A DNA stretch of 64,000 bases from Ceratodon purpureus (lineage: Eukaryota > Streptophyta > Bryopsida > Pseudoditrichales > Ditrichaceae). The stretch is taken from assembly GCA_014871385.1 (NCBI GenBank), contig CM026426.1, positions 91,593,948-91,657,947 on the forward strand, written 5' to 3'. A program made the position numbers and the translations under genes. Of this stretch, positions 20,001 to 53,587 are shown piece by piece. The notes beneath the pieces were generated by a model. That model was given only the letters and a program-made list of their open reading frames with translations, was not told where the DNA came from and ran no database searches. Position 1 is the stretch's first letter, and every line of letters starts with the position of its first letter.

Positions 20001-20080
20001 TAAAAGAATGCGATCCCTGCCAACGGATAGGAGCTCCGGCCGTACGGCATCACTGGCCGTTAACTCCCATTGTTCCACTA
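17048..20080 (+). CDS. pol: Gypsy pol, part 1: protease, reverse transcriptase, RNase H, integrase zinc finger
   Basis: The frame opens after a stop at 17045 and has no ATG for its first 80 or so codons, so it probably needs splicing or recoding from upstream. The protease motif is VDGGSGVNLL (near 17360). Reverse transcriptase shows RVCQDFRKLN, LDGFSGYNQV, RMPFGLCNAP and the catalytic FIDDFAVFS (near 18740), which resembles Athila-like elements; the lineage is not certain. RNase H has its Asp in TLDASG (about 19180), Glu in TEREALA and Asp in HTDHDSLK. The integrase HHCC finger (HDGPAGGHY...CDPCQR) ends near 20030. The hAT transposon interrupts the frame at 20081; the integrase core continues at 36776. 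The frame crosses the right edge of the left repeat (17251) without a break. Confidence 0.9.
20073..20080. repeat. Left 8-bp target-site duplication of the hAT
   Basis: TTCCACTA stands directly before CAGGGTTGT at 20081 and recurs exactly at 36768-36775 after the right terminus. Eight bases is the hAT hallmark. The two flanks are neighbouring integrase codons of the gypsy element, so the empty site is known. Confidence 0.97.
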
Positions 20081-20165
20081 CAGGGTTGTCACGGTCGTCC
20101 GGGACGCTCGGGACGTGGGGACGTCCGCGGACGTCCGCCAGCGCCAGGGGACGTCCTGTGACTTA
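20081..20165 (+). repeat. hAT left terminus and subterminal GACGTCC repeats
   Basis: After the 9-bp terminal repeat come several copies of GGGACG and GGACGTCC within 80 bp. The same GACGTC word is repeated at the right end (36671-36752). hAT transposases bind short subterminal repeats next to the TIR; these are good candidates (inference). The retroelement pol frame runs on by chance into this part until 20161. Confidence 0.75.
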
Positions 20166-20220
20166 GAAAAAAAAAATCACCCGCATAGGTTTCACCCCGG
20201 GGTGAAACCACATCTTCTAC

Positions 20221-20830
20221 GCGGCGGAGGGGTTGCGGGGGAGGGTGCGGCCGTCGCCGCGGAGCGGGGGGGGCCGTCGGACGCGTCGGGAAGGGGCCGT
20301 CCCCGGCGACGGCCCCTTGCCGTCGCCGCGGTGGGGGGGGGCCGTCCCCGGGGACGGCCCCTTGCCGTCGCCGCGGTGGGGGGGGGCCGTCCCCGGCGAC
20401 GGCCCCTTGCCGTCGCCGCGGTGGGGGGGGCCGTCCCCGGCGACGGCCCCTTGCCGTCGCCGCGGTGGGGGGGGCCGTCCCCGGCGACGGCCCCTTGCCG
20501 TCGCCGCGGTGGGGGGGCCGTCCCCGGCGACGGCCCCTTGCCGTCGCCGCGGTGGGGGGGGGCCGTCCCCGGCGACGGCCCCGTTGCCGTCGCCGCGGTG
20601 GGGGGGGGCCGTCCTTGGCGACGGCCCCTTGCCGTCGCCGCGGTGGGGGGGGGGCCGTCCCCGGCGACGGCCCCTTGCCGTCGCCGCGGTGCGGGGGGGG
20701 CCGTCCCCGGCGACGGCCCCTTGCCGTCGCCGCGGTGGGGGGGGCCGTCCCCGGCGACGGCCCCTTCGACGGCCGTGACAGTCCATGATCGGACGGCCCC
20801 TCGTTGACTTACGGCCTCGACGGCCGTCCT
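20221..20830 (+). repeat. GC cluster 1: tandem array of about 45-bp GGCCGTCCCC units
   Basis: From about 20290 to 20765 a unit of about 44-46 bp is repeated roughly ten times. It contains GGGGCCGTCCCCGG, CGACGGCCCC, TTGCCGTCGCCGCGG and a run of 6-10 G. GGGGCCGTC and GACGGCCCC within each unit form an inverted repeat. The variable G-run explains the slight differences in unit length. The cluster stands upstream of the transposase TATA box (20875). Long open frames through it are low-complexity artefacts of the repeat. Confidence 0.9.
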
Positions 20831-20874
20831 CCGTTGATTTTTAGGGCTTACCCCTTGGCATTTCAGGGAATGAG

Positions 20875-20882
20875 TATAAAAG
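20875..20882 (+). promoter_or_regulatory. TATA box of the hAT transposase gene
   Basis: TATAAAAG lies about 45 bp after the end of GC cluster 1 and about 210 bp before the transposase ATG. No other TATA-like word of this quality lies between. Confidence 0.6.
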
Positions 20883-21086
20883 ACCCCTCCTGAAAGTTGC
20901 CATTACACTTCTGAATTGTACTCCATGTGCTACTAGTTCCACTAATATACGTGTGTATCTGTTGCATGGTGAACGGCGGCGTTCAGAAGTGTGTTGAATT
21001 GGAGCTTCTTCGGAGGCTCTAGTTCTCTTGAGGACGTGGTACCCCGATTTTTTGAAGTTTTTCCGGGCGATCTATCAAGTGCACCA

Positions 21087-24071
21087 ATGGCGTCTAAAAG
21101 TTACTCCCCATGGTATACCGAAGTCCATATGAGCGATGCGGAGAAGAAGAAGACTGAGATGGTTCAATGTATGCTATGCAAGAACACTTTCGCAAAGAGG
21201 ATTGAGCGGATGCTCAGTCATTTGGGCTATGACAAAGTTCTAGGGGTACGGACTAGTGGAGTAGGTCGTTGCACTAATTTGTCACCCGCTATATTGTCCT
21301 TGTTCAAGAATTGCGGTGGCAAATTCCCTAACGACTCCAGAATATTCATGTCGGAGCAGAGTACTTCCCCGGTGACTCGTGGCAATATATCCCCGAGAGT
21401 GAACACTCCCATGGATGTGGACTCATGCGCTGGATCCCGGGTTTCAACTCCGAAGAATGAACCCGTTTTAATTGGTGAGGGTGTACCTTTCATTTCCACT
21501 TTTCCGGGGGAAGGTAGTGGACCGTTTCCTCCTTTGAAGGCAAAGAGGCAATCTACCCTTCAAGAGGGCTTCGAAGAGACTCAGAGGCGGGAATGCGACA
21601 AAGCATGGGCCACATTTTTTTACGAGAACAGTATCTCGTTTAACGTGGCTCAGAGTGCCTCTTTCAAGGACGCGGTGTTGAAGACGTCCAACATGAAGAG
21701 ATCATACACACCTCCATCTTACCACCATCTCCGAACAAATTTACTAGCCCAAGCAAGGACTGATTTGGAGACTTCCTTGAATGATAGGATTTTTTCAAGT
21801 GTTAGGAAGTACGGGGGAACGTTGGCCCTGGATGGGTGGACTTCTGTAAGCAGTCGCCCTCTAATAAACGCAATGCTGGTATCTCCAGCTGGTGAGTTAT
21901 TCTTGGGAGCCGTTGACACGAGTGGGAAAGAGAAGGATGCTGTTTTCGTAGCAACCGTCATTGAGAAGTTTATCCAACAAGTTGGAGAACAGAACATCAT
22001 TCAAGTATGCTACGATAATGCTCCGGTGATGCTTAATGCCGGAAAGTTGGTCCAAGCACTCTATCCATCCATATTTGTCCAAGGATGTGCTGCCCATGCG
22101 ATGGACCTTTTGTTGGAGGATTGGAGTAAGATGAAGTGGGTGAAGGAGCTCCTAGATCGGGCTAAGAACTTGGTTAAGTTCATAAAGATAAGGCAAATGC
22201 CACTCTCGGTATTTCGAAAGCACGAGGCAAAACTTAGCTTGCTGATGCCTGGTCAGACTAGGTTCGCATCGCACTACATTATGATTTCGCGTCTACTGAA
22301 GGTTCGAGGAGCATTGGAGCAGAGCGTTGTGGATCCTGACTGGAGAAACTACGAAACGAAGAAGACCTTATCTGCCCGTGACAAAGCGAAGATCTCACGC
22401 GATGTTAAGAGGGTTGTCTTGGATGACGTTTTCTGGGAGCAATGTGCAAACTTCAAGTGGATGACGAGTCCCGTTGTATATGCCCTACGAGAGTTTGATG
22501 CAAAGGAATCGGCATTGGGTAAAGCCTACGTTGTTCTCCGCAACCTTGAGAAGCATGTTCTCTCTTTACGCCATGAGCCCTTCAAACTAGACTCAGACAA
22601 TGCTGATTACTACGAGGACTCATTTTACGAGCGTAAAGCCATGATTAAATCACCCTTACAGTGTGCTGCTGCGCTTCTAAACCCTTATCTTATTGACGAT
22701 GAGGACCTTCGCAATGATACTGATGCGATGGCATCGGCGAAGGAGGTCTTGTTGTCGATGGCTCCTCCGACACTGAAGGAAGTGGTCATAGAAGAGTTCT
22801 TTGCATTTCGTGAAGCTTATCCTCCGTTTCGTGACGTACGTGAATCCTCTAAGTCACAACTGCCGCCTTCTGGTTGGTGGGATATATACGGATCCGCTGG
22901 TAAATTCATTTCCCCAATTGCAAAAAGGATTTTAGCTCAGCCCCTGTCTTCTTCTTCATGCGAGCGGAATTGGAGTAGCTACTCCTTTGTCCACGACAGG
23001 AAGCGAAACCGTTTACTTCCGGAGAGGGCTAATGACCTCGTGTTTGTGTATACAAATTCCAAGATAATTTCCCAGTCCAAGTTGAGTGCCTTAGGCAGGT
23101 TCTACGGGGAGTTGGAGGGGAAGGAGGATCCGAAGGCCGTGGAAATTGAGGATGTTGACTACTCTAGTGAGTCTGATGTTGATCTACCCTTCGATGATCT
23201 ATCAATTGACCCCCCCATCGAGGCCCCAGTCGACGACCTTGAGGTGTCTCCGAAAGGAAAATCCCGTTGTTCTCCTGCGCCAATGGAGCGTGCTTTCGAG
23301 TATGATGATGTCGAAGAAGAAGGTACCAACGAGGAGGATACGATTCCTCTTTCCTCTTTTTTGAATGGAGACGGTTTATTAAACAGTGATAAGATTCTCC
23401 GGGGAGGATCCTCTCATACTACCGTGGATTTGGTCATACCAAAGAAAGAGGGAGACCCCACCATTGATACTTCTAAGGTTGTTTCTCCAAACTTCAACCG
23501 CCTGAAGGACGATATGGTTCCACCCACTACAAAGGAGGATGTGCCCGTACCCGTATCGGGTGCATCTCGCACATTGTTTGGAACTGCAAAGACTAGGGTC
23601 CAAGTTGGTGGGTTCGAATCGTCCACGAGGTTGGTTGAGTTGTCTAAAAAAATGAAGGCAGATGCTAAGGCTGCTGAAGTAGCGGAGAAATGTAGGAAGA
23701 GATTGGTCATAACCCGACAAGCGGACCCGGGCCTCCTCTCTACTGATGACGGACTTCCAATTGGGAATCTCTTTGGGCCGAAGTTGGCTTTGGGAAAACC
23801 GGACATATTTCCTGAGAAACCCCCTGCTAGAGCCACGTCCAAGCGAAAGGCTGTAGACAAGACTCAGAAGGTGTTGGCTTTCAATCCTGGTAGGCCAAAA
23901 ACTCCTTTGGATGACCCGAATGGCCCAAAGAAATTCCTGAACCCATTCGAGTCAAAGAAGAAGAGTAAGGCGAGGGTGAAGAAGGTACGCGAGAGCGATG
24001 GCGATGACGAATACGATTCTTCCGGTCCTAGTGGGGCCGAAGTGAAGGACGACAGCGATTATGTGGCCTAA
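21087..24071 (+). CDS. hAT-family transposase, about 994 aa, with long C-terminal extension
   Basis: Cuts and pastes the surrounding element in the nucleus. I start it at the first ATG of the frame (CACCATGG-like CCAATGG context); the frame is open further up without an ATG. Residues about 5-60 carry a BED-like zinc-finger pattern (W, then CMLCKNTF, a His and a later Cys). A DUF659-type catalytic core follows: Asp in LALDGWTS (about 248), Asp in VCYDNAPVM (about 310), then CAAHAMDLL (about 334). The hAT dimerisation region at about 590-660 has SSSSCERNWSSYSF with the expected Glu and Trp. Beyond about 690 is a 300-residue tail, acidic then Lys/Pro-rich, that most hAT transposases lack. No stops or frameshifts. 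It converges on the RING gene, with 3' ends 465 bp apart. Confidence 0.93.
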   Translation: MASKSYSPWYTEVHMSDAEKKKTEMVQCMLCKNTFAKRIERMLSHLGYDKVLGVRTSGVGRCTNLSPAILSLFKNCGGKFPNDSRIFMSEQSTSPVTRGNISPRVNTPMDVDSCAGSRVSTPKNEPVLIGEGVPFISTFPGEGSGPFPPLKAKRQSTLQEGFEETQRRECDKAWATFFYENSISFNVAQSASFKDAVLKTSNMKRSYTPPSYHHLRTNLLAQARTDLETSLNDRIFSSVRKYGGTLALDGWTSVSSRPLINAMLVSPAGELFLGAVDTSGKEKDAVFVATVIEKFIQQVGEQNIIQVCYDNAPVMLNAGKLVQALYPSIFVQGCAAHAMDLLLEDWSKMKWVKELLDRAKNLVKFIKIRQMPLSVFRKHEAKLSLLMPGQTRFASHYIMISRLLKVRGALEQSVVDPDWRNYETKKTLSARDKAKISRDVKRVVLDDVFWEQCANFKWMTSPVVYALREFDAKESALGKAYVVLRNLEKHVLSLRHEPFKLDSDNADYYEDSFYERKAMIKSPLQCAAALLNPYLIDDEDLRNDTDAMASAKEVLLSMAPPTLKEVVIEEFFAFREAYPPFRDVRESSKSQLPPSGWWDIYGSAGKFISPIAKRILAQPLSSSSCERNWSSYSFVHDRKRNRLLPERANDLVFVYTNSKIISQSKLSALGRFYGELEGKEDPKAVEIEDVDYSSESDVDLPFDDLSIDPPIEAPVDDLEVSPKGKSRCSPAPMERAFEYDDVEEEGTNEEDTIPLSSFLNGDGLLNSDKILRGGSSHTTVDLVIPKKEGDPTIDTSKVVSPNFNRLKDDMVPPTTKEDVPVPVSGASRTLFGTAKTRVQVGGFESSTRLVELSKKMKADAKAAEVAEKCRKRLVITRQADPGLLSTDDGLPIGNLFGPKLALGKPDIFPEKPPARATSKRKAVDKTQKVLAFNPGRPKTPLDDPNGPKKFLNPFESKKKSKARVKKVRESDGDDEYDSSGPSGAEVKDDSDYVA

Positions 24072-24535
24072 TTGGACACGATAGTTAGAAGGCGGCATTT
24101 CCAGTGCACCACCCTAGAATGCCACTCTTTTATGAATGTCCATTTCTAGAAACCATTATCATATTATATCTCATTTAAGCGGTGGTGCTTGCCTCTTCAA
24201 TATTGTCCTCCACATTGTGTACTTATTTTTACTTTGATTGTACTTCTCGCAATTTCTTTCTCGTAATGAATGTACACAATCTACATATGAAGTTCGATGC
24301 ATCTAAGTACTAACAATTCTTTCAACACAAATGCAACTCCAATAAAACATAAATGAAATTGTATTAAAACCAGAGGTAATTTTTGCAAGTATTTATAGAA
24401 GTAGTGTAAAGTCCATACACCGGGCTCCGCAACCAATATATATATATATATACTGCTCTAAATACGACTATCACCCAGTGTATTGTCACATTAACCGTAG
24501 TAATGCGGGTACCATGTCCAACGTAAATACTCTAC
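24072..24535. other. Convergent 3' intergenic region with (TA)n
   Basis: AT-rich DNA between the stop codons of the transposase and RING genes. It includes a short (TA)n microsatellite near 24436-24452 and AATAAA-like words (24342) that could serve as poly(A) signals. No gene seen. Confidence 0.5.
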
Positions 24536-27500
24536 TCAACGTCCATTGTTTGCATTTGACCTCCGAGTCTGGCGTCGCTGGCTTGGATGTGTAATCGTAC
24601 CCCCCGATCGATATTCTTCTTCCACGCGATCCAAAGAACGACGATTATCTTCCCCCCATTCGGGATCGTCTTCATAAGGGTTGTCTCGATTGCGCTTCTT
24701 GGAATTCTTCCCGTTCCACAACTCCTTTGCCTTGTCAATCTTGGCTACTGTTTCTTGCACAATCTTCTCAATCCTATTGCGTGACCAACGAGAGGAATTA
24801 TCCTCCGCACGAAGTGCCCTCCTCCAGTCGTTAACTATTTTATGAAGAGCATCGTCAAACTTCTTAGTGATCACCCAGTAGTCTAGGTCCGAATATTTGA
24901 AGGATTCCTCTGTAAAAGTGCGACGATGCTGAATGGCTTCTTCTAGTTTGGCCAATACAAGTGCCCTACCAACCGGGGTTCTGTCATACATCTTGTACTC
25001 ATCAAGTTGGCCATAGTCCCGTTCTACTTCTCTTCTCTTACCGTCGGCATCTACCACAACTTCCGGTTTTGGAAACCGGAAGAAGCGATTGCGATGTATA
25101 CTCCAATGTCCACCGAAGTTCCTACAAAAAAATTCTCGGTCCTTGGCATCCGGAATTTCACTTGCCCTCATCTCCACCTCATGGTCGTGAGTCATCCATG
25201 AAAAATCGTCCATTCCGGCATCGTTAGCCGTAGATAGTTGGTGAGTCATTGTCTCCGGGTTCCAAGCCAGTGATTTGCCCCAATCATAATAATTCAGCTC
25301 TTTCTTAGGTAGTTGGTCTAGTGGTAAATTCCACCGATCAAACTCATGCCCAGGCGGCATCACGTGTTGTAGTCCCAGCATCTCGTAAAAACGTGAACTA
25401 ATTGGGGAGCGACACATAACACACTGTTTGTTGTTTAAAGCAGCCTTCGCGATGCAGGTTATGTGGAACTTGTGATTACAATTTCCCATCTCAAAGGCCC
25501 CTTCCGGCCCAAAATATTGTTGACAGATGGGACACGTTTCCTTCGAATATTCCTCCGACGGTTTGCGGGTATGGATAACCACACGTTTCGATTCATCCAA
25601 ATGAGATGATAGTACATCGTACGGCATCCACCCCTCCTCGACCTCTAGCGCCCAGTCAATGACCCCTTCTTTATTTTTGGAACTATGTAATGTGCGCTCC
25701 ATCATTTCTCCTACATCGCGCCATATCGTGATTTTTGTAGCATCCTCGCCGCCCTTGGCTGCTGCCTCGTTATACTTCTGTAAAGATGATTGGATAGCTT
25801 CTTCGACATCCATAGAAGTAATTGCACATTTCTTCATATCCTGTTGTGCTCTAGAGACTATTGTCTCCTTATCTCGTAGTTTGTGGACCCAACCAAGCCA
25901 TGATAATGCCCTTATGGAAGATGGTGTATCATCAACCATCCTTATGGTGGTCTTCAGCCTTTCCAGTTCCGTACGGGCCTCGTCTCTTTCCCTTCTAGCC
26001 ACCTCCAAATCCCGTAAAAGAATGTCTAATTCTATTGAATCATCCATTGGCCCTTTTCCTCTATCCTCATGTCTTGGTGTTGCTTGGCTAGAGCCAATGT
26101 CCAATGGAACTGGACCAGATGTCATTTTAGACTTCTGAGATGCCATCCCTTGTGTGGCCCCATCTCCACTTTTATTTGAAAATTTAGAAAGGCCAAGGTC
26201 ATCGGAATCCTCACCATCGCTCAGTACTTCAATGATACGATCCTTTCCTTCCACCTTCACCACTTCCTTCTTCACCGTAGGCTTCACTTCTTTTGTTTTG
26301 TTTTTCTCCTTCTCTACCGGGTGGTAGATTTTGCACTCTTCCAATTGTGCAAAAAAACTCATCTTCACATGGTCCAACCTTCTTGTCAAACTCTTGATTT
26401 GTTCCGTTGCATCCATTAAATCCTTACTCAGAGCCACGTTCTCTTCGCCTAACTTCACACGGTCTTCCAGAAGAGGCTTAATGGAAGATGCCAAAGTGTC
26501 AAAGCCAAGGGCACCCTGTATCATGCCCGGAGTGATACTTCCAAATGCATGAGCCATATTTATGAGATCTGGTGCCATAGCGCCTAATACGGAAGCCCCT
26601 TCTTTCAGGGTGTGTGCAATCTTCAACACATTATGAATTTGTTGCACTTCCTCCGTGGTTCTTGTTGCAGCGTCTCCCTCTGTGGTATTCTCTAAGCCCC
26701 CACGCTGTTCATCAGAGGACACCTCCGTCAATTTGGTGCTAAAATCTAGTAACTCCTTCAATGATTCATTGTTTGGCATCGACTTCACCAGCTCCATAAT
26801 CTCCGAAATGGAATGAACTGCATCCTTTGTGCTATTCTCTTCGGTACGCACTTGTACTATTGCCAAGGAACTTGGACCATCATCCACTGAACGAGAGTTG
26901 GAGCATCCGGCTTCCGCAGCCGTTAGATGTGTTGAGCAGTCATTGTCCACCTCCACTTCCACCTCATCTACGGCTGCCTTGCCCTTTGTATCGTTGGAAG
27001 ATTTCACCGTGATTTCCAGGTCTGCTCTAGGAATAGTAGGGGCATTAGTTTCTGTGGCAACGGGGAACATCGTAGCGATCACATTGGCAATGGCAACGGG
27101 CTTCTTTTCCTCTGGACGATGCGGAGTTTCATTCTGTACTTTTTTTACTTCATTCTTCGGAAAGCTCTTTAGATGTGGCCACTGCCGCTTTCGGAACTCC
27201 GCTACAACCTTCTGTGCTTGCAAAGGATCGATCAGATATAAATCCGGAATGTCTGTTACCATCCATCCAATTTGCAACGGCCTGTCTTTCGTAGTGGGGT
27301 ACGTACACCAACTAATCTTCCGCTTCAATATTAGCTCCGCATATACCATACTACAAATGGTATAATTGAAATGGCCTTTGCTGGGCTTCCGTTGCCCAAA
27401 CATAGTAGTCCAGACTTCATATGCCCGATGCAAGAAATGGTCATCCATGCATAACCAGGGCTTGCAACTAAAAGTCCGTGTGTTCATCTCGTGTTCTTCT

Positions 27501-27706
27501 CGGGGCCATAACTTGTCAATGTGATACATCTTCACATACTTCTTGCACTCCTTGAAAGTCCAGAAAATCTCCCCTACAGATTCCCAGCCTTCTTCTGCTA
27601 CAATGTTTTTGTTGTCTAGGATCTCCCAAGAAAAGTTGTGGCACATTCCCTTCGGCCTGTTCCTCTTCCCGGTTCCTCCAATCTCATCATGTTCCGGATC
27701 CGCCAT
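24536..27706 (-). CDS. RING-H2 finger cargo protein of the hAT, 1056 aa
   Basis: The ATG is at 27706 and the frame is uninterrupted. Residues about 35-150 form a domain with CKKYVKMYHIDKLWP, a His-Tyr pair and MVYAELILKRKISW; the protein at 31635 has a related domain. A long disordered stretch and two charged helical segments (about 430-480 and 560-610) follow. A RING-H2 finger lies at about 725-770: CPIC, then CNHKFHITC, then CVMC, the C3H2C3 zinc pattern. A basic, partly helical C-terminal 250 residues includes KRNRDN. By family a RING-H2 finger suggests ubiquitin E3 ligase activity; the target is unknown. It could act on host silencing factors or on the transposase (speculation). GC cluster 2 lies about 235 bp upstream. 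No introns are needed. Confidence 0.85.
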   Translation of the reverse strand: MADPEHDEIGGTGKRNRPKGMCHNFSWEILDNKNIVAEEGWESVGEIFWTFKECKKYVKMYHIDKLWPREEHEMNTRTFSCKPWLCMDDHFLHRAYEVWTTMFGQRKPSKGHFNYTICSMVYAELILKRKISWCTYPTTKDRPLQIGWMVTDIPDLYLIDPLQAQKVVAEFRKRQWPHLKSFPKNEVKKVQNETPHRPEEKKPVAIANVIATMFPVATETNAPTIPRADLEITVKSSNDTKGKAAVDEVEVEVDNDCSTHLTAAEAGCSNSRSVDDGPSSLAIVQVRTEENSTKDAVHSISEIMELVKSMPNNESLKELLDFSTKLTEVSSDEQRGGLENTTEGDAATRTTEEVQQIHNVLKIAHTLKEGASVLGAMAPDLINMAHAFGSITPGMIQGALGFDTLASSIKPLLEDRVKLGEENVALSKDLMDATEQIKSLTRRLDHVKMSFFAQLEECKIYHPVEKEKNKTKEVKPTVKKEVVKVEGKDRIIEVLSDGEDSDDLGLSKFSNKSGDGATQGMASQKSKMTSGPVPLDIGSSQATPRHEDRGKGPMDDSIELDILLRDLEVARRERDEARTELERLKTTIRMVDDTPSSIRALSWLGWVHKLRDKETIVSRAQQDMKKCAITSMDVEEAIQSSLQKYNEAAAKGGEDATKITIWRDVGEMMERTLHSSKNKEGVIDWALEVEEGWMPYDVLSSHLDESKRVVIHTRKPSEEYSKETCPICQQYFGPEGAFEMGNCNHKFHITCIAKAALNNKQCVMCRSPISSRFYEMLGLQHVMPPGHEFDRWNLPLDQLPKKELNYYDWGKSLAWNPETMTHQLSTANDAGMDDFSWMTHDHEVEMRASEIPDAKDREFFCRNFGGHWSIHRNRFFRFPKPEVVVDADGKRREVERDYGQLDEYKMYDRTPVGRALVLAKLEEAIQHRRTFTEESFKYSDLDYWVITKKFDDALHKIVNDWRRALRAEDNSSRWSRNRIEKIVQETVAKIDKAKELWNGKNSKKRNRDNPYEDDPEWGEDNRRSLDRVEEEYRSGGTITHPSQRRQTRRSNANNGR

Positions 27707-27720
27707 AGTAACCTCGTTTT

Positions 27721-27850
27721 AAACAAAAACGATTTGGTTTTGTTTTAAAGAAAACAAGGAGTTGATAAATGACGTTTACAAAATAACGAATACAGAAAAT
27801 TCAAAAACTCCCCCCCCCCACAATAAAAAGGGACCCCCATCTCCTCACCC
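27721..27850 (-). promoter_or_regulatory. Leader of the RING gene with a C-tract, similar to the kinase-like gene's leader
   Basis: On the plus strand this reads AAAATTCAAAAACT followed by ten C and then a GGGACCCC-like stretch. The corresponding position before the kinase-like gene (35665-35735) reads AAAATTCGAAAAGT, a longer C-tract and GGACCCC. The shared order suggests a common origin for the two 5' regions. Confidence 0.5.
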
Positions 27851-27934
27851 CCACGTACCAACAAGCCCCCAAGTGAATTGGGAAACTGTAGCAATAGGAG
27901 AGGGACTATTGAGGAGAGTGAAGTGAGGAAGTGG

Positions 27935-28495
27935 GGGACGGCCGTCGCCATATATGGCGACGGCCCCCAACCCTACGGCCGTCCCCCCGAGCCTAGTGCC
28001 GTCGCCCCCCGATCCTACGGCCGCGGCCAATGGCCGTCGTCCCGAACCTGACGACGGCCGTTGGGGGACGTCGGGTCGGGGGCCACGGCGACGGCCGCGG
28101 AGGCCCGTGCCTCCGCAGCCGTCCGATCGGGCCGTGTCCTCGGCGACGGCCGTCCGATGAAGGCCGTCGCCGAGGGGACGGCCTTGGAGACGGCCCCCGA
28201 GGGGGCGGCTTGCGGCCCTCCGATCGCGGCCGTCCCCGCGGCCGTCGCCGTCCGATGGCGGCCGACCGCACGGGGACGGCCGCGTAGACGGCCTTGGAGA
28301 CGGCCGCGGGGACGGCACCGTCGGCGACAGCCCGCGGCCGTCCGATCGGGGCCGTCTCCAAGGCGACGGCCGTTCGATCACGGCCGCGATCGAAGGGCCG
28401 TCCCCGCGGACGGGCCCTCGCGGAGACGGCCCACGGCCGTGGAAACGGCCCCCGACCGTGGGGACGAGGCCGTCGCGGCCGCGGGAAATTTCCCT
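27935..28495 (-). repeat. GC cluster 2, upstream of the RING gene
   Basis: Dense, irregular copies of ACGGCC, GGCCGTC and CCGATCG. The gene-proximal edge is a perfect 26-bp palindrome at 27940-27965 centred on TATATA (GGCCGTCGCCA on each side), which might double as the gene's TATA region. The arrangement differs from cluster 1, which has regular tandem units. Long frames here are composition artefacts. Confidence 0.8.
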
Positions 28496-30570
28496 CCCCC
28501 CCCTTTTTTAAAATACAAATGAAAAAAACATATAATGCTACATCTTCCGACCACATATTACACTAAACCTGTTAATTTCTTTCACCAATTAAAATGAGAA
28601 CAGCAGTTAATGTAAACACGAATTAAAATACTTCATGGTATGCAAAGCATCTAAATTCTTCAACGAGTCATTATTCCGTACGCTCCACTGAAGTTAATGT
28701 ATGTGTCATTTATTCGAATCATTATTTCTGTTGTTTCTATCGTACGCATTTCAAGGTGGTCTATCATCGCACTCCAAAAGTTCCTTGCAGAAATCGAAGT
28801 CATCTAAACTTGTTTCAGAAATTGTAATCTAAATAGTTCTCCGTGGACCGTCTTCTTATTCTCCGCTTTGAATTTTTGTTTTTTTAAATACATAAGTGCT
28901 TCTATTATACTTTCATTAAACGGCTTCATATTATCAATTTAATTCGAGTTACCATCTCTTTATGTACTTTTAACGTTCCTCCCTCTATACAATTTCCACT
29001 TTCGAATATTGTTTTCATTTACCTCTTCTTTATTTTACTCTATGTTTAAACTTTATTCCCCTCTAGTTTATGCCCTTTTTTTAACGTCTAATTTGTCTAA
29101 TTTAGAACTTCAACCCTCGAAGCTCCATAAATGTCATTTCGTGAATTTCTTCCTTTCATATCGTTTTGAACGTTCGTATTTCGATTTATTTCCTCCATGA
29201 CCCATGTTAAAGTATATTTTACTAATTCGACCACTATTCCACCATTTTACTTGTTAAATTCTCTCATTCGTGCTTGTTAAATTCTCTCATTGTGTCATTA
29301 GTAAGTGTTTACTTTTGTACGTATGTACTATACATTGTACAAGTTAGAATCCCATTCCATATTTATATTTACGTTAAAGTGTATATGAATAAACATATAT
29401 TTGTATAGAGTATAATGTAAATGTGTTACCTAATTTATTTATTTTATTTCATATAAGTTGCAAGGTACAACTCAATTCTGGGCGTTGGAAACTAGAATTG
29501 TTTCTAAAAACAATGATTTCAATTACAGTCGTTCACAAATTGGCAATATTCATTGACGGTTGAATGTTTTATGTTTTAATTTTGTTTTTTACTATTATCC
29601 CTTCCTCATCTCATAATGTGAGCTAGTGATTTTTTATTTTATTTTTAATGATAACACAGTACTACGGTATGGAAGTTTGTAAAATAAAAGACATTAAAGA
29701 GGAAGGAGAGTCTTTATATTTCAAATAACTCTAAACCAGCCATGAGAAATTAGAATTGGACCATTTGTTATGAAAACAATGATTTGAGTTTTATTCCTCC
29801 CATGAATTGCATAATCCCAAGGGAATTGAATGTTTGTTTTGGTTTATTTCACTTTATTATTATCTCCAGTTTCTTTCATAATCTAAACTACTATTTATGT
29901 TTTTATTTTTGATTCTACCATAATACTAAAGAACGAGAGTATGTAAAATTAAAGAAATAAAACTAGGGTAAATCATTCCATTAAAAATTAGAGTCAAAGA
30001 ATCTATATAAATATTTTCATTGTATACCACTAATCGAGAAGAAATTGGATCTATATTTCTAAGAGATTACCCTAAACCGTAAACCGGTGAAATATAAATG
30101 CAAATCTTTTAACCATTTAAACGTAAGGTGCACCGCATCCAAAACCAAGTGTGTACATCAATTAATGCGTTGAATTACTTCTAGTGCATTCTCTCCGCGA
30201 TGTTCCTCTTATCATATTGTTGTTGACATTTACTCTTTTGATTCGTTAGTATAAAATGTTAATTCATTACCGTATGCTAAAACATGAGTACCTTCGTTTC
30301 TTTAAATGACAATTGGTAAAAACTGTTTTAGTGTACCCACAATGTCTACGGTTCTTTCCATTCAATAGGATATATATTCTTCTTCATAAACGTGTTCACA
30401 TTATTTGTAGATCCTAGGGGGTTATCCACCCCCAAAGAACCAAAATATCACATAGTTCATTGGATCCCAATTTCAAACGTCGACCCCACCTCCCCGATCA
30501 CAGGATCTTCAGGACATTCCCCACAATATCCGGGATATGTCTGAATTTTCCATTTGTAGGAGATATGCTG
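28496..30570. other. AT-rich central spacer of the hAT
   Basis: Over 2 kb of AT-rich DNA separates the two convergent gene pairs. No gene, RNA or regular repeat is visible. The step from AT-rich spacer to GC-rich clusters is sharp on both sides. Confidence 0.6.
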
Positions 30571-30600
30571 TCCAAACAATCCCAAGTGGGATTGTTTGGA
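30571..30600. repeat. Perfect 30-bp palindrome
   Basis: TCCAAACAATCCCA and TGGGATTGTTTGGA are exact reverse complements separated by AG. It lies just outside a purine-rich run (about 30601-30672) that leads into GC cluster 3. It could form a hairpin or be a dimeric protein-binding site. Confidence 0.85.
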
Positions 30601-30689
30601 ACAAGAAGGAGGGGGGAGAGTAGGGGAGGAGAGGGGGGAGGAGAGGAGAGAAAACACAAGGGGAGGGGAGTTCCTTCGACCCCCCCCCC

Positions 30690-31245
30690 ACACGGCCGTC
30701 CCCGGGGACGGCCACGGCCGACCCCGCGTGGACGGCCGTCGGCCACGGCCGTCGGATCTTCTCCGACGAGAAGATCCTACGGCTGCGGACGACGGCCGTC
30801 CACGCGGGGACGGCCGCGGCCGACCCCGCGTGGACGGCCTTGGCCGACTCCGCGGTCGCAGCCCCCCGACCCCGGGGTCGGCCGCGGCCGTCCCCGCGGG
30901 GTCGGACAAGGCCGTCCCCGCGTGGACGGCCGTCGCCGACCCCGCGGTCGGAAGGTCCGTCCGCGTGGACGGCCCTCGCCGACCGCGTGGACGGCCGTGG
31001 CCGACCGCGGGGTGGAGCACGGCCGTCCCCGCGGTGGGCCGCGGCCGACCCCAGGGACGCCCGTCGACGTGGTCGGCCGTCCCGACCGCGGGGCGGCGGT
31101 CCACCGACGCACCCTTTGGGGAGCGGTCGCGGCCGCACGACCGGTCGCGTCCGCGATCGTGGACGGCCGCGACCGCTCCCGCGACGGACCAGTTACGGCC
31201 GTTGGATTCTCCATTCCCCGAGATCCAACGGCCGTAGGGGGGCCG
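30690..31245 (+). repeat. GC cluster 3, upstream of the 500-aa cargo gene
   Basis: Irregular copies of ACGGCCGTC, GACCCCGCG and GTCCCCGCGG, with GCGTGGACGGCC repeated many times. The gene-proximal edge ends with CCAACGGCCGTAGG. The ATG of the next gene is about 390 bp downstream. Confidence 0.8.
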
Positions 31246-31634
31246 TCGTTTGACCTAACTGGCTGCCTAGGGGTTCGGGCCAGCATTAATTGCTGGCCCT
31301 TCTTCCTTTTTCTTCACTTGGGTGCTCGTGCTACATGTGCTGGATTTACTTCAGCTCAGTTGCGTTCCTCCAAGCTTTTACTTCTTCCCCACGGGTTATC
31401 GTGGGATTGTGTTTAGGGTTGTCCGCACCGTTTGTTGGTTATTATGAAACCAACAGTATAGTGCTTCATACGTACGGTTTCTTGGCAGGAGTTCTGGGTT
31501 TTGTTTTAGTCCTTATGCACTAGATATATACGAGATTAAATCAACTTTTATACGGTGGGGAGAAGTTACAGGCATTGTTACGAGGTTGGTACGATACACG
31601 GTATTCACAGCTACTCGCTTACCGGACTTTCGCC
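31246..31634 (+). other. Leader region of the 500-aa cargo gene
   Basis: Moderate GC, no obvious TATA box. A short open frame (31290-31523, 77 codons, hydrophobic) lies upstream of the main ATG; it may be an upstream ORF or simply leader sequence. A small inverted repeat GGGCCAGCA-TTAAT-TGCTGGCCC lies at about 31278-31300. Confidence 0.4.
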
Positions 31635-33137
31635 ATGCCTCGTAACGACCGGGGAGGACCCTCCACTCCTAAAAAGAAACACCCCTTGGATCCATACGCT
31701 ACGAATGACCCTGATTGTGTAGCAGAGATTGGATGGGAGGGGGAACCATCACCATGGCGGATGGTAACTTGCAAGGAATATGTCAAGATGAAGCACCTCA
31801 TGAAGTTGATCCCAGTACATCTACGTACCGAGGCTGCGGAGAAACAAGCAACACGGGGAGAAATCAGGATCGACAATTGTGAAAGTAATCATTTCAAAAT
31901 TCGATACAACGAGGTTTTTCGAGCAGCACGAATCCAGAACTCCCGACCTCATATCATGTTGTATTCGAATATGGCAATGGTGTGGGCGGAGATAGTCTTA
32001 CATAAGAGGGTTGACTGGACCACAGTCTCGGGCCTGAGGACAGATAGAATGAACAGAGACAGCATGGATCTTGTAACAGACTGGAGTGGACATAGCGATT
32101 GTCCCCCATTACATATTTCAAACCGTCGGAGTCCACCGGCACAAGATGCAGGAATACAAACTCTAGCCATCGAATATAATGATGAGGAACAGGAGAGACG
32201 TCGTTTAAGCTATGATGATGAAGACAACTATCGAGGGCGTCGCTCAAACGAAAATCCAAGGAATCGCAGAGGGCATCGTGCCAGAGAGTCATCACGTACC
32301 AACCATGAGGAGTATGGACAAAGCTCTGCCCACGGGGGACACCGTTCGCTAGATCGTCAGGACATGGGACCCCACGAACAAGGCTATGGCCACGGGGAAC
32401 CGGGAGGAGCTGATTTACCCTTTGACTTTGCGGATAGCACGTATGGACCCTATGGGGGACGACCGTGGCCAGATTATGCAACGGGATCAAGATACTTTAG
32501 TAACTATGACGACGGCTGGTCGGAAATACCGAGTCCTCGAAGGAGTGCTAGTCCGCGCCATCGAACACCTCCGAGAGAGGTACCTCACGGTTATTCCCCT
32601 GATCGCGAAGAAGATACGCAGAGACTGGGACGTGATGATTACGCAACTCCCCCTCCATACCGCGGATATGGTGGTCATGGTACCCCATCTGCCCTATTTG
32701 CAGAAGATGATTACAGATCATCTTCGCGGACTCCGCCTGGAATATTTCCTCCACCTCTAGGTTATCACACCGACGGTACTGATCACAATAGCGGGGACAA
32801 CCGCAACGTACTTCATCGCGATGACAGAGTACCACCTCCTCCTTTTGGATACCCTCCCGGTCGAGTTGTAAGAGATAGCTATGTTGAGGAAGAACTAGAG
32901 TTGGAGCGAACAAGGAAAAATTACGTACTACAGATGGAGAATCATGCGTTCCACCTAAGACGGGATAATCGAAGATTGATGGAGGAGAGAGAGAGACTTC
33001 TGAGAGCCTCCACAAATTCTGCAAGGCACGGGCCACAAGAAACGTACGATCGGGGAGGTCCAAGCGAACTCCCCAATGATGGGAACTATTATCATCCATA
33101 TGACTACAATGGATTAGGGTGGAGGGGAGACTATTAG
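31635..33137 (+). CDS. Cargo protein with the RING-gene N-terminal domain and Arg-rich tail, about 500 aa
   Basis: The frame is open from 31575, but the first ATG is at 31635 (CGCCATGC). Residues about 25-135 match the N-terminal domain of the RING protein in spacing and key words: GWEGEPSPWRM, CKEYVKMKHLMKL, then Tyr-Ser-Asn-Met-Ala-Met-Val and WAEIVLHKRVDW. The middle is an Arg/Ser/Glu/Gly/Tyr-rich disordered region (RS- and RE-like dipeptides, suggestive of RNA or nuclear-speckle proteins). Residues about 420-465 form a charged coiled coil (LELERTRKNYVLQ). No catalytic motif. The domain is not one I recognise. It converges with the kinase-like gene, about 950 bp apart. Confidence 0.8.
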   Translation: MPRNDRGGPSTPKKKHPLDPYATNDPDCVAEIGWEGEPSPWRMVTCKEYVKMKHLMKLIPVHLRTEAAEKQATRGEIRIDNCESNHFKIRYNEVFRAARIQNSRPHIMLYSNMAMVWAEIVLHKRVDWTTVSGLRTDRMNRDSMDLVTDWSGHSDCPPLHISNRRSPPAQDAGIQTLAIEYNDEEQERRRLSYDDEDNYRGRRSNENPRNRRGHRARESSRTNHEEYGQSSAHGGHRSLDRQDMGPHEQGYGHGEPGGADLPFDFADSTYGPYGGRPWPDYATGSRYFSNYDDGWSEIPSPRRSASPRHRTPPREVPHGYSPDREEDTQRLGRDDYATPPPYRGYGGHGTPSALFAEDDYRSSSRTPPGIFPPPLGYHTDGTDHNSGDNRNVLHRDDRVPPPPFGYPPGRVVRDSYVEEELELERTRKNYVLQMENHAFHLRRDNRRLMEERERLLRASTNSARHGPQETYDRGGPSELPNDGNYYHPYDYNGLGWRGDY

Positions 33138-34087
33138 AATGGGGTGCATGGTAGTACTTTCTACAGCATCGGAGCGTACCGAGACTTTAACGTGGACTTC
33201 GCATATTACAAATTTACAACGGAAAGTAAAAGATGCAAGCATAGTATGTACGTAGTTTGCAGTTTTGTAGATGGAGGTTTAAAATGTACGGACTCAAGAA
33301 TACTGGCACGTGCCACATTTTGCAAGTAGAATAGATATAATTAGTGTTTTAGAGTGTAGTTGTGTTGTCTTGTATATTGTAGTTGTCTTCACATTTGAAA
33401 GGAATTTACCTTTTTAATATTCTTGTAGCCGTATTCGAAGTGCACATTACTATCAATATCACTATTTTTAAAATGACAACTTCCTATTGACATGGGTTAT
33501 GAGTCTACGACTTACGAGCACTAGAATATAATGAATCTCAAGACAAGTATGCGAAATAATTTTCAATTATTTTTTTGGCTAAATTAATAAGAATATCGTG
33601 AATGATATTTTTTGATGGATGCATATTTATATCTAAGGTATTTGTTTGTACAGGGGATTATGAGCAATCACGTTTTGCGGCCCTTACGCTTTCGTCTTCA
33701 CGAAAAGAACTTGAGTATACGCTTGCCAATATTTGTAAGAATAAAAATTACAAAGCATAAATGTTACAATTCACATATCGCATAATTTTCATAATTAGAA
33801 TTGAGAGTTTCGACTTTTAGGTAGATGTGTGGAGCCAATCCGTTTTCCTCATAATACAAGGGGTAGAAATAGACCAATCTTAGTACAGAGACCATATTTG
33901 AACCAAATGCAAGTAAACTTTATAAACAAAATATTGACCGGTGTACAAAAATTGAGATTCCAACATCTCATAATAATATAGAGTGTAAATAGGACAGTTC
34001 ACTACTAAGAGCTATGCCCGCCGTCCGGTAACAAAAAAAACATTATGCTTTTATAGGAATACGGAAAGGTAGATATGTAACTCCATA
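33138..34087. other. Convergent AT-rich 3' region
   Basis: AT-rich DNA between two convergent stop codons. No gene seen. It presumably holds both 3' untranslated regions. Confidence 0.5.
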
Positions 34088-35563
34088 TCAGTAACCCTCG
34101 CGATAGTGCTCGATGGGAGTGGGCCAGTTGTGTGTATCTCTGAAACGGTTAATAAGATGTCCGAGTCCACCAATCGTTCCTCTGTATTTTTGGCAAACTC
34201 TCTCAAGGTAACCTTCGAAAACCATTGCGAGTTCTCCGATATTCGGGAAATGGCGTGTTTCTACTGGCTCGGCTTCGTGGTATGCCGTGCACATGTTGCC
34301 CCTGTTGATCTTCGCCGCTATCTTCGCAGCTGCGAAATCCTCCGATGCAACCGTCAAATCTGGAATGATTTGAATATCTTGGTTTTCCTTGTGTACGTAT
34401 ACCACGCGAGGATCCACCCAGTATCGCCTCCTCATAGTCTCCTCCTTCTGATGGACATTCTCAAAAACCCAAGGCGACCTTCTGTTCTCTAGTGTCTTCG
34501 TCATCAAGCCCCAATCACAAACCCCGATGTAGATCTTGGATTCATCTTCCGGAAAGTGAAGTAGGATGTTGTCCGGTGACAAGTCATTGTGGAGGTAACC
34601 GTATTTGTGTACGGCATCTATGATGTTACACAATGCCCAAGCAAGCTCTGTACGCTTACTTCGGAAAAGTTGGAGACGCTTCCCTAGAATCGGACTGTCG
34701 TCTGCATTCTCTCTGAAGATGTAGTCGATGGGGAGGTCACCCGGGGCCTCGTTGTCTCTCTGTAGCATGGCTCGAAGGGTCCCACCGTTCCACCAGAACA
34801 TGAATCCCACATGTTCCAACTGATGAATGGCCTGGAAGCGGATGACACCAGGATGGGGAATCCTTATCGCAAGAGATTCATTGTTGTGGTCCACACGTGC
34901 CAAATCCGGCCTCATAGACCAATTGAGCGGCCGTTTCTCAGCAAACTCCCAGTACGGTGGGATTTGCGGGTTTCCTTCGATACGAACCCTACGTATGGTA
35001 GCATAACCACCTCTCTGGACTTCCTTGTCCAAGTAATAGAAAACTGCAAAGTCTGCCAAGATAGTCAAATGCCGTTTACGTAAGTCAGCCGCCGTCTCCA
35101 TCCCAATCGGAGAATTCCACCAAGTAATAGACGCCCGTCGATGCTTTCTTGAGCTATGGGGCGCCATTAGTCTCGTGAAGCAATCTGCCTTTGCAATAGT
35201 ATCCTTGAAGGCCTGGACTCCCCCCCTTTGCGCCTTTGCATACTTAGTAATAACCTCTTTAGCATTCCATAACGCATCGTGTGCACGTTGTGACACGAAA
35301 TGATCGTAACCGGGCTTCTGTGTATCCGAATGCCAGCACGGATCCATCAAACGATCCCTAATCTTTGTCTCCATCTCTGACTTGAATTTCCTGGGCCCAT
35401 CTTCCTCATACCGAACATAACGACTATTCAATGAAACAAGGGTATTCTCCTGGTAAAATTCCACGATGAATGCCACAATATAATCCTTGCAATGTAAGCT
35501 CGGCATGTCATCGAATTTGTTCGCCCATTCCCCCACATTCTTCTGCTTCTTATTCTTCGGCAT
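34088..35563 (-). CDS. Protein-kinase-like cargo protein of the hAT, 491 aa
   Basis: The ATG is at 35563 (MPKNKKQK, basic start), with no interruption. The first 170 residues are helical and charged with no known motif. From about 180 a kinase-like fold can be followed: GGYATIRRVRI as a glycine-loop remnant and WEFAEKR as possible Lys strand. The catalytic loop YLHNDLSPDNILL (about 321-333) has HND where most kinases have HRD. The metal-binding motif is VCDWGLMTK (about 350), with DWG in place of DFG. The Asp and Asn of the loop and the Asp of DWG are kept, so activity is possible. The substrate is unknown. GC cluster 4 and a TATA box lie upstream. It could alternatively be a pseudokinase. 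Confidence 0.8.
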   Translation of the reverse strand: MPKNKKQKNVGEWANKFDDMPSLHCKDYIVAFIVEFYQENTLVSLNSRYVRYEEDGPRKFKSEMETKIRDRLMDPCWHSDTQKPGYDHFVSQRAHDALWNAKEVITKYAKAQRGGVQAFKDTIAKADCFTRLMAPHSSRKHRRASITWWNSPIGMETAADLRKRHLTILADFAVFYYLDKEVQRGGYATIRRVRIEGNPQIPPYWEFAEKRPLNWSMRPDLARVDHNNESLAIRIPHPGVIRFQAIHQLEHVGFMFWWNGGTLRAMLQRDNEAPGDLPIDYIFRENADDSPILGKRLQLFRSKRTELAWALCNIIDAVHKYGYLHNDLSPDNILLHFPEDESKIYIGVCDWGLMTKTLENRRSPWVFENVHQKEETMRRRYWVDPRVVYVHKENQDIQIIPDLTVASEDFAAAKIAAKINRGNMCTAYHEAEPVETRHFPNIGELAMVFEGYLERVCQKYRGTIGGLGHLINRFRDTHNWPTPIEHYREGY

Positions 35564-35664
35564 CGTGGAAAGCCTTCAAGGCTTCAAGAAATCGTAACCG
35601 CAACTCCAAAGAAACCCTCAATTCCCACAATGATTAATAAGAGCAATACAAATCCAAAGGGTTT

Positions 35665-35735
35665 TAAAAAAAACCGTTTAAAAATTCGAAAAGTCCCCCC
35701 CCCCCCAAATGAAGGACCCCTTTCCTCCCGGTGAG
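35665..35735 (-). promoter_or_regulatory. Leader C-tract of the kinase-like gene
   Basis: AAAATTCGAAAAGT, a run of about 12-13 C and GGACCCC lie 100-170 bp upstream of the ATG, in the same order as before the RING gene (27721-27850). This is read by eye and is not a full alignment. Confidence 0.5.
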
Positions 35736-35830
35736 AACGACCAACGGAGAAGGATCAAGTCCCCCACCAGTAGCAATCAGCCTCACTCGAAAAGAGAGAA
35801 AAAAGGTAAAAAATGAAGAGGCGCCTTCCC

Positions 35831-35838
35831 CTTATATA
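35831..35838 (-). promoter_or_regulatory. TATA box of the kinase-like gene
   Basis: On the minus strand the sequence is CTATATAAGG, about 270 bp upstream of the ATG and directly beside GC cluster 4. The position relative to the GC cluster resembles that of the transposase TATA box. Confidence 0.6.
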
Positions 35839-35849
35839 GGGGAAGCCGA

Positions 35850-36640
35850 CCTCGCGGCCGTCCCCACGGCCGTCCCCACGGCCGTCCCCGCGGCCGTCCG
35901 ATCTACGCCCCCGCGGCCGTCCGATCGGGCGCGACTCCGCCCGAAGGCGCCGGCCGTCCGATCGGACGGCCGCGTCGGGCGATGGCGCCGCGTGGCCGTC
36001 CGACCGACGCGGCCGTCTCCGCGGTCGGCCCCGTCTGCACGCGGTCGGCCACGCGGACGGCCGTGTCTCCCCGCGGTCGCCCACGCGGACGGCCGCGGGA
36101 TCGGACGGCCCTCCGCGGCGGCCATGGTCGGCCGCGGAGGGCCGTCCGATCCAGTGGCCGTCCCCGCGGCCGACCGCGGAGACGGCCGCCCGATCGGACG
36201 GCCCACCCAGGCCGACCATGGCTGCCGCGGGCCGTCCGATCCCGCGGCCGTCGCCGTTGCCGACCGCGGGGACGGCCACGGGGACGGCCGCGGGATCGGA
36301 CGGCCCGCGGTGGGCCGCGCCGATCGAGCGGTCCCCGATGGCAGGCGTCGGGATCGATCCGGGCCGTCGGATCCCGCGGCAGTCCTCGAGGCCGTCCCCG
36401 CGGTCGGCCGCGGCGACGGCCGTGGGATCCGACGGCCCTGGAGGGCCGCCCACATCCGACGGCCCGCGATGTGCCAGCACGGCCGCATCTTGGCCGTCGG
36501 ATCGACTAGCGGCCGTCCGCAACGACCCCGCGGCCGTCTCCGCGGCCGTCCCCGCGGCCGTCCCCGCGAACGGACGGCCGAGATGAGGCGTGGTGGCGGG
36601 ATCGGCCGATCGGACGGCTGGGGAATGTTTTTACCCCTCC
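35850..36640 (-). repeat. GC cluster 4, upstream of the kinase-like gene
   Basis: Copies of GCGGCCGTCC, ACGGCCG and CCGATCGGACGGCC repeated throughout, many with the fused palindrome CGATCG. It ends close to the right subterminal region of the hAT. Long frames on both strands here are artefacts. Confidence 0.8.
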
Positions 36641-36670
36641 GGGGTCGCAAAATTATTACCGCGGCGTAAT

Positions 36671-36767
36671 TCTCGAGCGTCGGGGACGCCACGTCCGGGA
36701 CGGGGGACGTCCGGGTCGGACGTCTTGACGTCCGGAGCCGGGTCGGACGTCTATTTGAACAACCCTG
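36671..36767 (-). repeat. hAT right terminus and subterminal GACGTC repeats
   Basis: Ends AACAACCCTG, the inverse of the left terminus. Five or so copies of GACGTC/ACGTCC precede it, matching the left subterminal word. Beyond the 9-bp terminal match the two ends are similar in motif but not in linear sequence. Confidence 0.8.
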
Positions 36768-36775
36768 TTCCACTA
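36768..36775. repeat. Right 8-bp target-site duplication of the hAT
   Basis: TTCCACTA, identical to 20073-20080. The gypsy integrase frame resumes here. Confidence 0.97.
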
Positions 36776-37671
36776 GCACCGTTTGAAAAATGGGGAGTGG
36801 ATTTTATTGGACCAATTCAACCGGTAGGCACTCAGAGGCACCGGTACATCATTTTGGCGACGGACTACGCCACGAAGTGGGTAGAAGCCAGAGCCACCCG
36901 GAAGAATGATGCCGAGACATCCGCCCGGTTCATATTCGAAAGGATAATGATGCGATTTGGCCATCCGTTGGAGATAGTGAGCGACCGGGGAACACATTTC
37001 CTGAACGAAGTGGTGGCCGGTCTGACCAACCAGTACGAGGTCAAACACCGGAAGACCACACCGTACAATCCTAAGGCGAACGGATTGACGGAACGTGCCA
37101 ACGGAATAATCTGTAAGATTCTGACCAAGGTGGTGACCTCACATAAGACGGACTGGGACCGGAAACTGACATCGGCGGTCTATGCGTACAACACGGCACA
37201 CAAGAGTACAACCGGACGGACTCCGTATTATCTGGTATACGGACAGGAGGTACTTCAGTCCATCGAGACGGAAGTAGAGACGTTGAGGGTACTCGCAGCC
37301 AACCACGGAGATAAAACGGATGCACTCGACGACCGGCTACAGGTCATCGACCGGATGGAGGAAGACCGGATGGAGGCATTGGAACGGACAAAGGAGGTCC
37401 AAGCCAAAAGGAAGGAAGTGTATGACAAGCGAATCACAACGGATAAAGGAATCGAAGAAGGAGATTGGTTCTAGTCTATGACAGCCGGTACAAGAATTTC
37501 CCGGGTAAGTTACATACTCGCTGGATGGGACCGTTCCGGGTTGATAAGATTTATTCCAATGGGTCATTACAACTTTCAGACCTAGAAGGATATCCAATGG
37601 ATACTAGGGTGAATGGATCCCGGGTCAAACTGTACAGACCGGATGACGTTCGCGAGGACGCTCACGGGTGA
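36776..37671 (+). pseudogene. pol: Gypsy pol, part 2: integrase core and C-terminal region, frameshifted
   Basis: Continues the integrase cut by the hAT. The DDE core is present: Asp in GVDFIGP (about 36800), Asp in VSDRGTHF (about 36985) and Glu in NGLTERANG (about 37088). The frame stops at 37472-37474 (TAG); a second frame running to 37671 carries the usual downstream block with GPFRVDKI. A one-base deletion near 37468 accounts for this. No chromodomain is seen. The stop at 37671 is followed directly by the polypurine tract. Confidence 0.85.
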
Positions 37672-37682
37672 AAAAGGGGTAA
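37671..37682 (+). other. Polypurine tract before the right LTR
   Basis: AAAAAGGGGTAA stands directly before TGTGG at 37683. A purine run in this place primes plus-strand DNA in LTR retroelements and marks the true start of the LTR. Confidence 0.75.
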
Positions 37683-38062
37683 TGTGGAAAGTGATTTCCA
37701 CGGTTGACACACCGGAATACTAATCCCGGTAGGAAAATGATAAAAAAATTAAAAATTTTATGTTAGAAATACGGAAGTACTAAGCCTATAAGTAAAACAA
37801 CCGGTTAAGCCGGTCGGCTGAATAAATAAGTGACCGGAAGGCCAGCCGGGTGAGATCCGGTCGTCTGCGGTGGAGGAGAGACGGGTACAGTCCATATGAC
37901 AGAGCCCTGACCCGGCAGACTTAAGGATAACCACCAAAAGGTACAACGCACCCGGGGATAATGGCTGCAACCATTAAAACGCCGCCGGTCGCGACCGTCC
38001 AATAATGATGGGCTACGACCGTCCGTCATGATGAGCTACGAACGGGTGGGCGCGAGGGCAGG

Positions 38063-38069
38063 TATAAAA
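38063..38069 (+). promoter_or_regulatory. LTR TATA box (right copy)
   Basis: TATAAAA identical to 13957-13963. From here it could drive the second 622-codon ORF and read into the MULE gene downstream. Confidence 0.55.
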
Positions 38070-53578: not shown

Positions 53579-53587
53579 CTCAATTTG
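53579..53587. repeat. Right 9-bp target-site duplication of the MULE
   Basis: CTCAATTTG, identical to 10432-10440. Confidence 0.95.

Follow-up and report, generated by a model that had tools for sequence, protein, structure and literature searches.

In the genome of Ceratodon purpureus, a stretch of 64,000 bp (C6:91593948-91657947, hereafter the window) contains a hAT element of 16,687 bp with four long, open, intron-less frames, which encode a transposase, a RING-H2 protein, a protein denoted ORF3 and a kinase-like protein. hAT elements are usually regarded as one-gene transposons. The reading that we consider probable is that of a single autonomous four-protein hAT which moves as a unit and whose accessory genes serve the element itself; that they do so is suggested by the presence of the same three genes in copy after copy.

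Boundaries and target site

The base-exact ends, established by sequence inspection, lie at 20081 and 36767 and agree with the original prediction, as does the perfect 8-bp duplication TTCCACTA that flanks them (Table 1). The terminal inverted repeats, CAGGGTTGT and ACAACCCTG, are perfect over 9 bp and have the short length and CAGNG-type start of hAT termini, for which the consensus given in a plant survey is [T/C]AGNGNNG (PMC6027215). The element has inserted into the integrase frame of a gypsy retroelement, another point on which the prediction was correct, and separates the H2C2 zinc-binding domain on the left from the rve core on the right (profile search); the element plus one duplication measures 16,695 bp, a multiple of three. 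The host gypsy is flanked by direct repeats of 3,678 bp (13574-17251 and 37680-41357, 99.946% alike), which are either very long LTRs or an LTR plus a repeated first gene; since these repeats are nearly identical and the hAT lies inside the gypsy, the gypsy copy appears recent, and the hAT more recent still. Each direct repeat contains a 622-aa open frame (14166-16034; 38272-40140).

No internal termini were found for the extra genes within the element. The only one-mismatch CAGGGTTGT sites there (22409, 24676 and 31414, all on the plus strand) were rejected as such termini, and across the window such sites number 13 against 14.7 expected, with no excess over chance. Exact CAGGGTTGT matches at 2013 and 45290 were likewise rejected as family ends, the bases that follow being unlike the ends of the element. 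Elsewhere in the window, 587-4589 holds either the remnants or the exons of a CACTA-type transposon (Transposase_21 (tnp2), 72.9 bits; DUF4218, 28.1 bits), and a 234-bp inverted pair (10440-10673 and 53346-53579, 97.4% alike, 43 kb apart) probably represents copies of another repeat.

Table 1. Features of the hAT element and its insertion site (window coordinates).
Feature	Position	Strand	Evidence
Gypsy integrase, left piece, H2C2 zinc-binding domain	frame 17084-20161		domain match
Left target-site duplication TTCCACTA	20073-20080	.	sequence; 8-bp duplications also at other copies
Left terminal inverted repeat CAGGGTTGT	20081-20089	+	conserved at ends of other copies
Left subterminal GC block (transposase upstream region), 14 GGACGGCC on either strand	20081-20830	+	motif count
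hAT transposase, 994 aa, DUF659 and Dimer_Tnp_hAT	21087-24071	+	profile matches; at least 40 copies
RING-H2 protein, 1056 aa; N-terminal domain common with ORF3	24536-27706	-	profile match, BLASTP, hhalign, copies
GC block 5' of RING gene, 8 GGACGGCC	27935-28500	-	motif count
AT-rich spacer (30% GC) separating the convergent gene pairs	28500-30450	.	composition
GC block 5' of ORF3, 14 GGACGGCC	30680-31250	+	motif count
ORF3, 500 aa; remainder beyond N-terminal domain without known domain	31635-33137	+	BLASTP, hhalign, copies
Kinase-like protein, 491 aa; HNDLSPDN and DWG motifs	34088-35563	-	weak profile and PDB matches, copies
Right subterminal GC block (kinase upstream region), 23 GGACGGCC	35840-36767	-	motif count
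Right terminal inverted repeat ACAACCCTG	36759-36767	-	sequence; conserved in other copies
Right target-site duplication TTCCACTA	36768-36775	.	sequence; perfect match to left TTCCACTA
Gypsy integrase, right piece, rve core	frame 36590-37474		domain match

Gene complement

The hAT transposase and three further long open frames that had been noticed in the sequence are all present and intron-less, and form two convergent pairs with an AT-rich spacer in the middle. The transposase matches DUF659 (123.7 bits) and the C-terminal dimerisation domain Dimer_Tnp_hAT (39.3 bits), both above the cut-off, together with a marginal N-terminal BED zinc finger (13.8 bits against a cut-off of 20.6). It contains the strings LALDGWTS, VCYDNAPVM and CERNWSS, candidates for parts of the D-D-E triad, and a weak alignment to Hermes (E 0.087) spans the first and last of these. 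The RING protein carries a zf-RING_2 domain above the cut-off (31.7 bits, about aa 724-767), and all eight Cys/His zinc ligands of its C3H2C3 pattern are kept in each of the 11 copies read, by which it is a predicted ubiquitin ligase. ORF3, whose mechanically delimited frame begins at a TTG at 31575, had no match in Pfam at E up to 1 or in NCBIfam at E up to 0.1; the NCBIfam search yielded weak kinase matches only.

The kinase-like protein scores 23.8 bits against Pkinase, below the cut-off of 31.7, and PDB kinases match its catalytic half with E 0.001 or weaker; the Lys and Gly-rich loop of an N lobe were not identified. The usual protein-kinase motifs are HRD and DFG, in the place of which this protein has HND and DWG; the strings HNDLSPDN and DWG are nearly invariant among copies. 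About 110 N-terminal residues are homologous between ORF3 and the RING protein (BLASTP, 34% over 111 columns, E 8e-10; hhalign, probability 96%, E 6e-9). A corresponding homology of the kinase N-terminus was rejected, as hhalign gave it only 0.4% and 0.2%, although it resembles the RING/ORF3 domain in a C-K-x-Y-V/I string. AlphaFold models were of low confidence (mean pLDDT 31 for the kinase and 37 for the shared RING/ORF3 domain), and no relatives were found in viral contigs.

Copies in the genome

In the 362,488,568-bp assembly (151 contigs), each end and each gene of the element had at least 40 matches (40 of 221-611 first-look candidates being scored per search). Among the matches listed the long ones were 85-100% identical at the 5' end; at the 3' end the range was 92-100%, and in the genes 97-100%. 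Such repeated matching of every end and gene across the genome excludes chance as the origin of the observed structure. Genes were paired by expected place and orientation with a tolerance of 300-900 bp, so that an unpaired gene may be broken, shifted by nested insertions or outside the matches listed. By this measure 21 of the 40 listed transposase copies, a lower bound, are accompanied by RING, ORF3 and kinase genes whose order, orientation and spacing agree, 32 have at least two of the three extra genes in place and 5 have none at the expected place. Among the matches listed, ORF3 stands at the expected place in 68 of 87 kinase copies, and ORF3 or the kinase accompanies 35 of 44 RING copies. 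The original prediction of a mobile gene package thus held on both points by which it was to be judged, the extra genes being kept in many other copies and no separate termini for them having been found inside the element.

Nineteen copies were inspected for target-site duplications. Eight were readable at both ends, and all eight are flanked by an 8-bp duplication, as expected of a hAT, perfect in seven and with one mismatch in the eighth; in the 11 copies left out, the second end was not retrieved, fell outside the stretch or within a gap of the assembly, or had diverged too far. Empty sites had been proposed as a check, and for one copy there is a paralogous empty site: this copy, on contig C11, lies inside a relative of a 2.9-kb locus, L100 (C7:13478500-13481400), and the sequence on either side of it aligns with L100 as far as base 1779 and again from base 1772, overlapping by exactly 8 bp. 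L100 itself has the 5' end and array of the element followed by a different interior, and an end resembling the 3' end of the element lies about 1 kb from the C11 copy; both are probably non-autonomous relatives. By eye, the interior of L100 (a locus of 2,901 bp) carries about three tandem units of about 275 bp with a palindromic core. Assembly duplication probably accounts for some of the copies: those on C124 and at 10.4 Mb on C8 have nearly the same 3' flanks, and two on C8, at 4.0 and 4.7 Mb, both run into N at one end and have CCTGTGAG in common at the other.

Motif arrays

Each of the four genes is preceded by a block of 77-79% GC, the left subterminal one of which includes a 46-bp tandem repeat (20293-20766). 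All 59 occurrences of the 8-mer GGACGGCC in the element fall within these four blocks, where 0.3-0.5 per block would be expected and the maximum in 300 Markov-resampled sequences was 4. None was found in the four genes and two spacers tabulated, nor between the tabulated parts according to counts over the overlapping loci of the window (L001, L017, L025 and L009), and the 47,313 bp of the window outside the element contain a single occurrence. Arrays of similar size are present in eight of eight loci for each part, these being the best eight matches per search with the window's own among them. GGACGT(CC) also occurs in the outer 120 bp of both ends, with GGACGT present there 7 and 6 times against a total of 6 elsewhere. 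Because GGACGGCC arrays stand upstream of every gene and nowhere else in the element, the extra genes look integrated into it.

Selection and decay of the copies

Changes were placed by parsimony on FastTree trees of 8 transposase, 28 kinase, 16 ORF3 and 11 RING sequences, and internal branches were compared with terminal ones; the divergent copies were hand-picked from lists, partly for open frames and not at random. With p-values that are rough because the neutral expectation ignores methylation context, the nonsynonymous share on internal branches was lower than neutral for the transposase (4 of 13 changes, neutral 0.68, p 0.0066), the kinase (52 of 87, neutral 0.73, p 0.0055) and ORF3 (56 of 88, neutral 0.74, p 0.017), whereas the RING gene was under no significant constraint there (58 of 81, neutral 0.73, p 0.4). 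The proposed dN/dS analysis of the four genes accordingly gave signs of purifying selection, as far as can be read from substitutions, on three of them; for the kinase and ORF3 the ratio on internal branches was 0.55-0.60. On terminal branches, nonsynonymous changes made up 244 of 346 for the kinase (p 0.18), 165 of 238 for ORF3 (p 0.046), 74 of 115 for RING (p 0.021) and 6 of 11 for the transposase (p 0.26), and the difference in this share between internal and terminal branches was weak (kinase p 0.07, ORF3 p 0.35, pooled p 0.04). Inferred stops were absent from the internal branches of all four genes, where about 18 would be expected from synonymous changes, a deficit that is inflated since the copies were partly chosen for open frames, as is evident from the shortage of stops on terminal branches (21, of which 12 in the kinase and 9 in ORF3, against about 41 expected); the two kinds of branches differed in stops at p 0.002. 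Within the kinase, the catalytic segment at aa 301-356, picked after viewing an alignment of 12 copies chosen for open frames, has 2 variable sites of 56, compared with 93 of 435 elsewhere (p 0.0005).

Open frames had been taken to mean either selection or recent arrival, and it seems that both are involved. Identity is 99-100% among many copies, and stop-free frames make up 57 of 87 kinase, 47 of 86 ORF3 and 35 of 44 RING matches listed. Stops are frequent in the listed copies at 87-96% protein identity, where 17 of 38 are stop-free for the kinase and 4 of 37 for ORF3. From these tallies by identity, copies decay after insertion, while in the lineage that transposes the frames seem to be retained. 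Across 13 diverged kinase copies (L069-L081), the C-to-T changes per site, with shared changes counted once per copy, amount to 0.035 at CG, 0.040 at CHG and 0.011 at CHH; an excess at CG and CHG is the pattern expected of plant cytosine methylation and suggests that older copies have been methylated. Age also differs by contig: among the kinase matches listed, 2 of 18 at 99-100% protein identity and 35 of 38 at 87-96% lie on C6, which at 110.5 Mb is 30% of the assembly. The genome of Ceratodon purpureus is given as about 360 Mb, with U and V both exceeding 100 Mb (PMC8000587), and the bias of older copies to C6 would be explained by a non-recombining sex chromosome with slower loss.

Function and origin of the accessory genes

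The original proposal of extra proteins that assist or protect transposition gains plausibility from the GGACGGCC arrays and from the apparent selection on the kinase and ORF3, and is less well borne out for the RING gene in view of its lack of significant constraint on internal branches. Under our preferred reading, the transposase would act on the ends of the element, and the arrays would be control sites for the ends and all four promoters together, read by one or more of the element's own proteins, for which the BED-like finger of the transposase and the domain common to RING and ORF3 are candidates. The RING-H2 protein and the kinase might modify or remove host silencing factors, or else tune the transposase, which would allow the element to remain active despite its apparent methylation by the host. 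The function of the extra genes is most likely self-regulation or anti-silencing by way of the arrays, as in the VANDAL/VANC system of Arabidopsis; a specifically anti-silencing role of the accessory genes is a tentative suggestion. Similarly tentative is the notion of a self-run regulon, in which the related pair formed by the RING-bearing protein and ORF3 would read the arrays and, with the kinase, disarm host silencing.

It might be held instead that the three extra genes were acquired from the host and are merely passengers that the hAT does not use. Capture of host genes is frequent in DNA transposons (PMC6446971), and the absence of significant constraint on the internal branches of the RING gene would fit unused cargo, but the identical gene set recurs across copies, the intron-less frames stand behind arrays of the element's own subterminal motif, and the kinase and ORF3 are constrained on internal branches with no stops inferred there, so that we regard such passive carriage as unlikely. 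Quite unlikely, too, is a beginning as two elements, transposase with RING and ORF3 with kinase, that were joined with loss of the inner ends; this concerns origin only and is compatible with our favoured explanation. Two convergent pairs, each bounded by GC blocks, on either side of an AT-rich spacer, with the homologous RING/ORF3 domain once per half, are what such a fusion would leave, yet there is no internal end or duplication, the one-mismatch CAGGGTTGT sites being at chance level, and a separate half element was not seen among the matches listed.

RING and kinase domains are common in host signalling, which would suit accessory genes that benefit the plant, in defence or signalling, with the transposon as their vehicle in the manner of Starships. 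Against it stand a gene set that is constant rather than varied in the copies paired, the accumulation of stops in older copies and promoters composed of the element's subterminal motif; we consider it very unlikely. Nor is the element itself a Starship, its four proteins including no tyrosine-recombinase captain (DUF3435), and its open transposase frame rules out a Pack-type, non-autonomous gene-capturing element. If the probable reading of a four-protein autonomous hAT is right, a many-copy and recently active element of this kind amounts to a natural experiment, offering a series of copies from young to old, three accessory genes and a predicted motif for binding, that could reveal whether means of self-protection have arisen in plant DNA transposons other than Mutator; and some annotated kinase and RING genes in the Ceratodon purpureus genome may be transposon genes.

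Comparison with known systems

Ordinary plant hATs share with the present element the hAT ends and the 8-bp duplications usual for the family, but the longest consensus among 276 plant hAT sequences surveyed, that of Gulliver from Chlamydomonas (7,144 bp), is less than half as long, and the survey found no hAT in a moss, Physcomitrella included (PMC6027215). The term hAT is absent from the main text of a review of giant transposons (PMC6431247), and within the literature covered, namely titles and the starts of abstracts, with Repbase and most subscription papers outside the scope, we recognised no multi-gene plant hAT and no hAT carrying a RING or kinase gene. ToxhAT of wheat-pathogenic fungi, formerly called a hAT with cargo, is similar in its size of about 14 kb and its several genes, but has a TA duplication, for which its authors renamed it ToxTA, as well as a 74-bp terminal inverted repeat, and is non-autonomous, single-copy and not a hAT (PMC12506042).

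Parallels in gene content come from rust fungi. There, TET+ hAT7 elements combine a hAT transposase with an accessory TET/JBP gene inside the element, for which a role against silencing has been proposed (PMC12730594); they are fungal, have 7-bp duplications and encode a TET/JBP dioxygenase, in place of the 8-bp duplications and the RING, ORF3 and kinase-like proteins found here, and none of our four proteins matched TET/JBP at E up to 1. TET+ IS3EU, also from rust fungi, unites transposase, TET/JBP and alpha-kinase genes in one DNA transposon, and its kinase gene is likewise opposite in orientation to the transposase (PMC12730594). It belongs to another superfamily, however, with 6-bp duplications and long terminal inverted repeats, and its kinase is an alpha-kinase, unlike the present one, which weakly matches ordinary protein-kinase models. 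hATs with an accessory gene are already known, then, from rust fungi.

In regulatory layout, the element resembles VANDAL21/Hiun, a Mutator transposon of Arabidopsis with several genes and an arrayed motif that is rare elsewhere (PMC5735166, PMC6446971). The VANC protein of VANDAL21 binds a 9-base motif in tandem repeats of the non-coding and terminal parts, and brings about loss of methylation (PMC5735166). VANDAL21 differs in its Mutator transposase (no Mutator model matched the proteins of our element, whereas hAT models did) and in having no terminal inverted repeats, and its anti-silencing by VANC has been experimentally shown, where the binder in the present case is a candidate. Should the regulon proposed above be real, it would represent anti-silencing by ubiquitination and phosphorylation, unlike that of VANC or TET.
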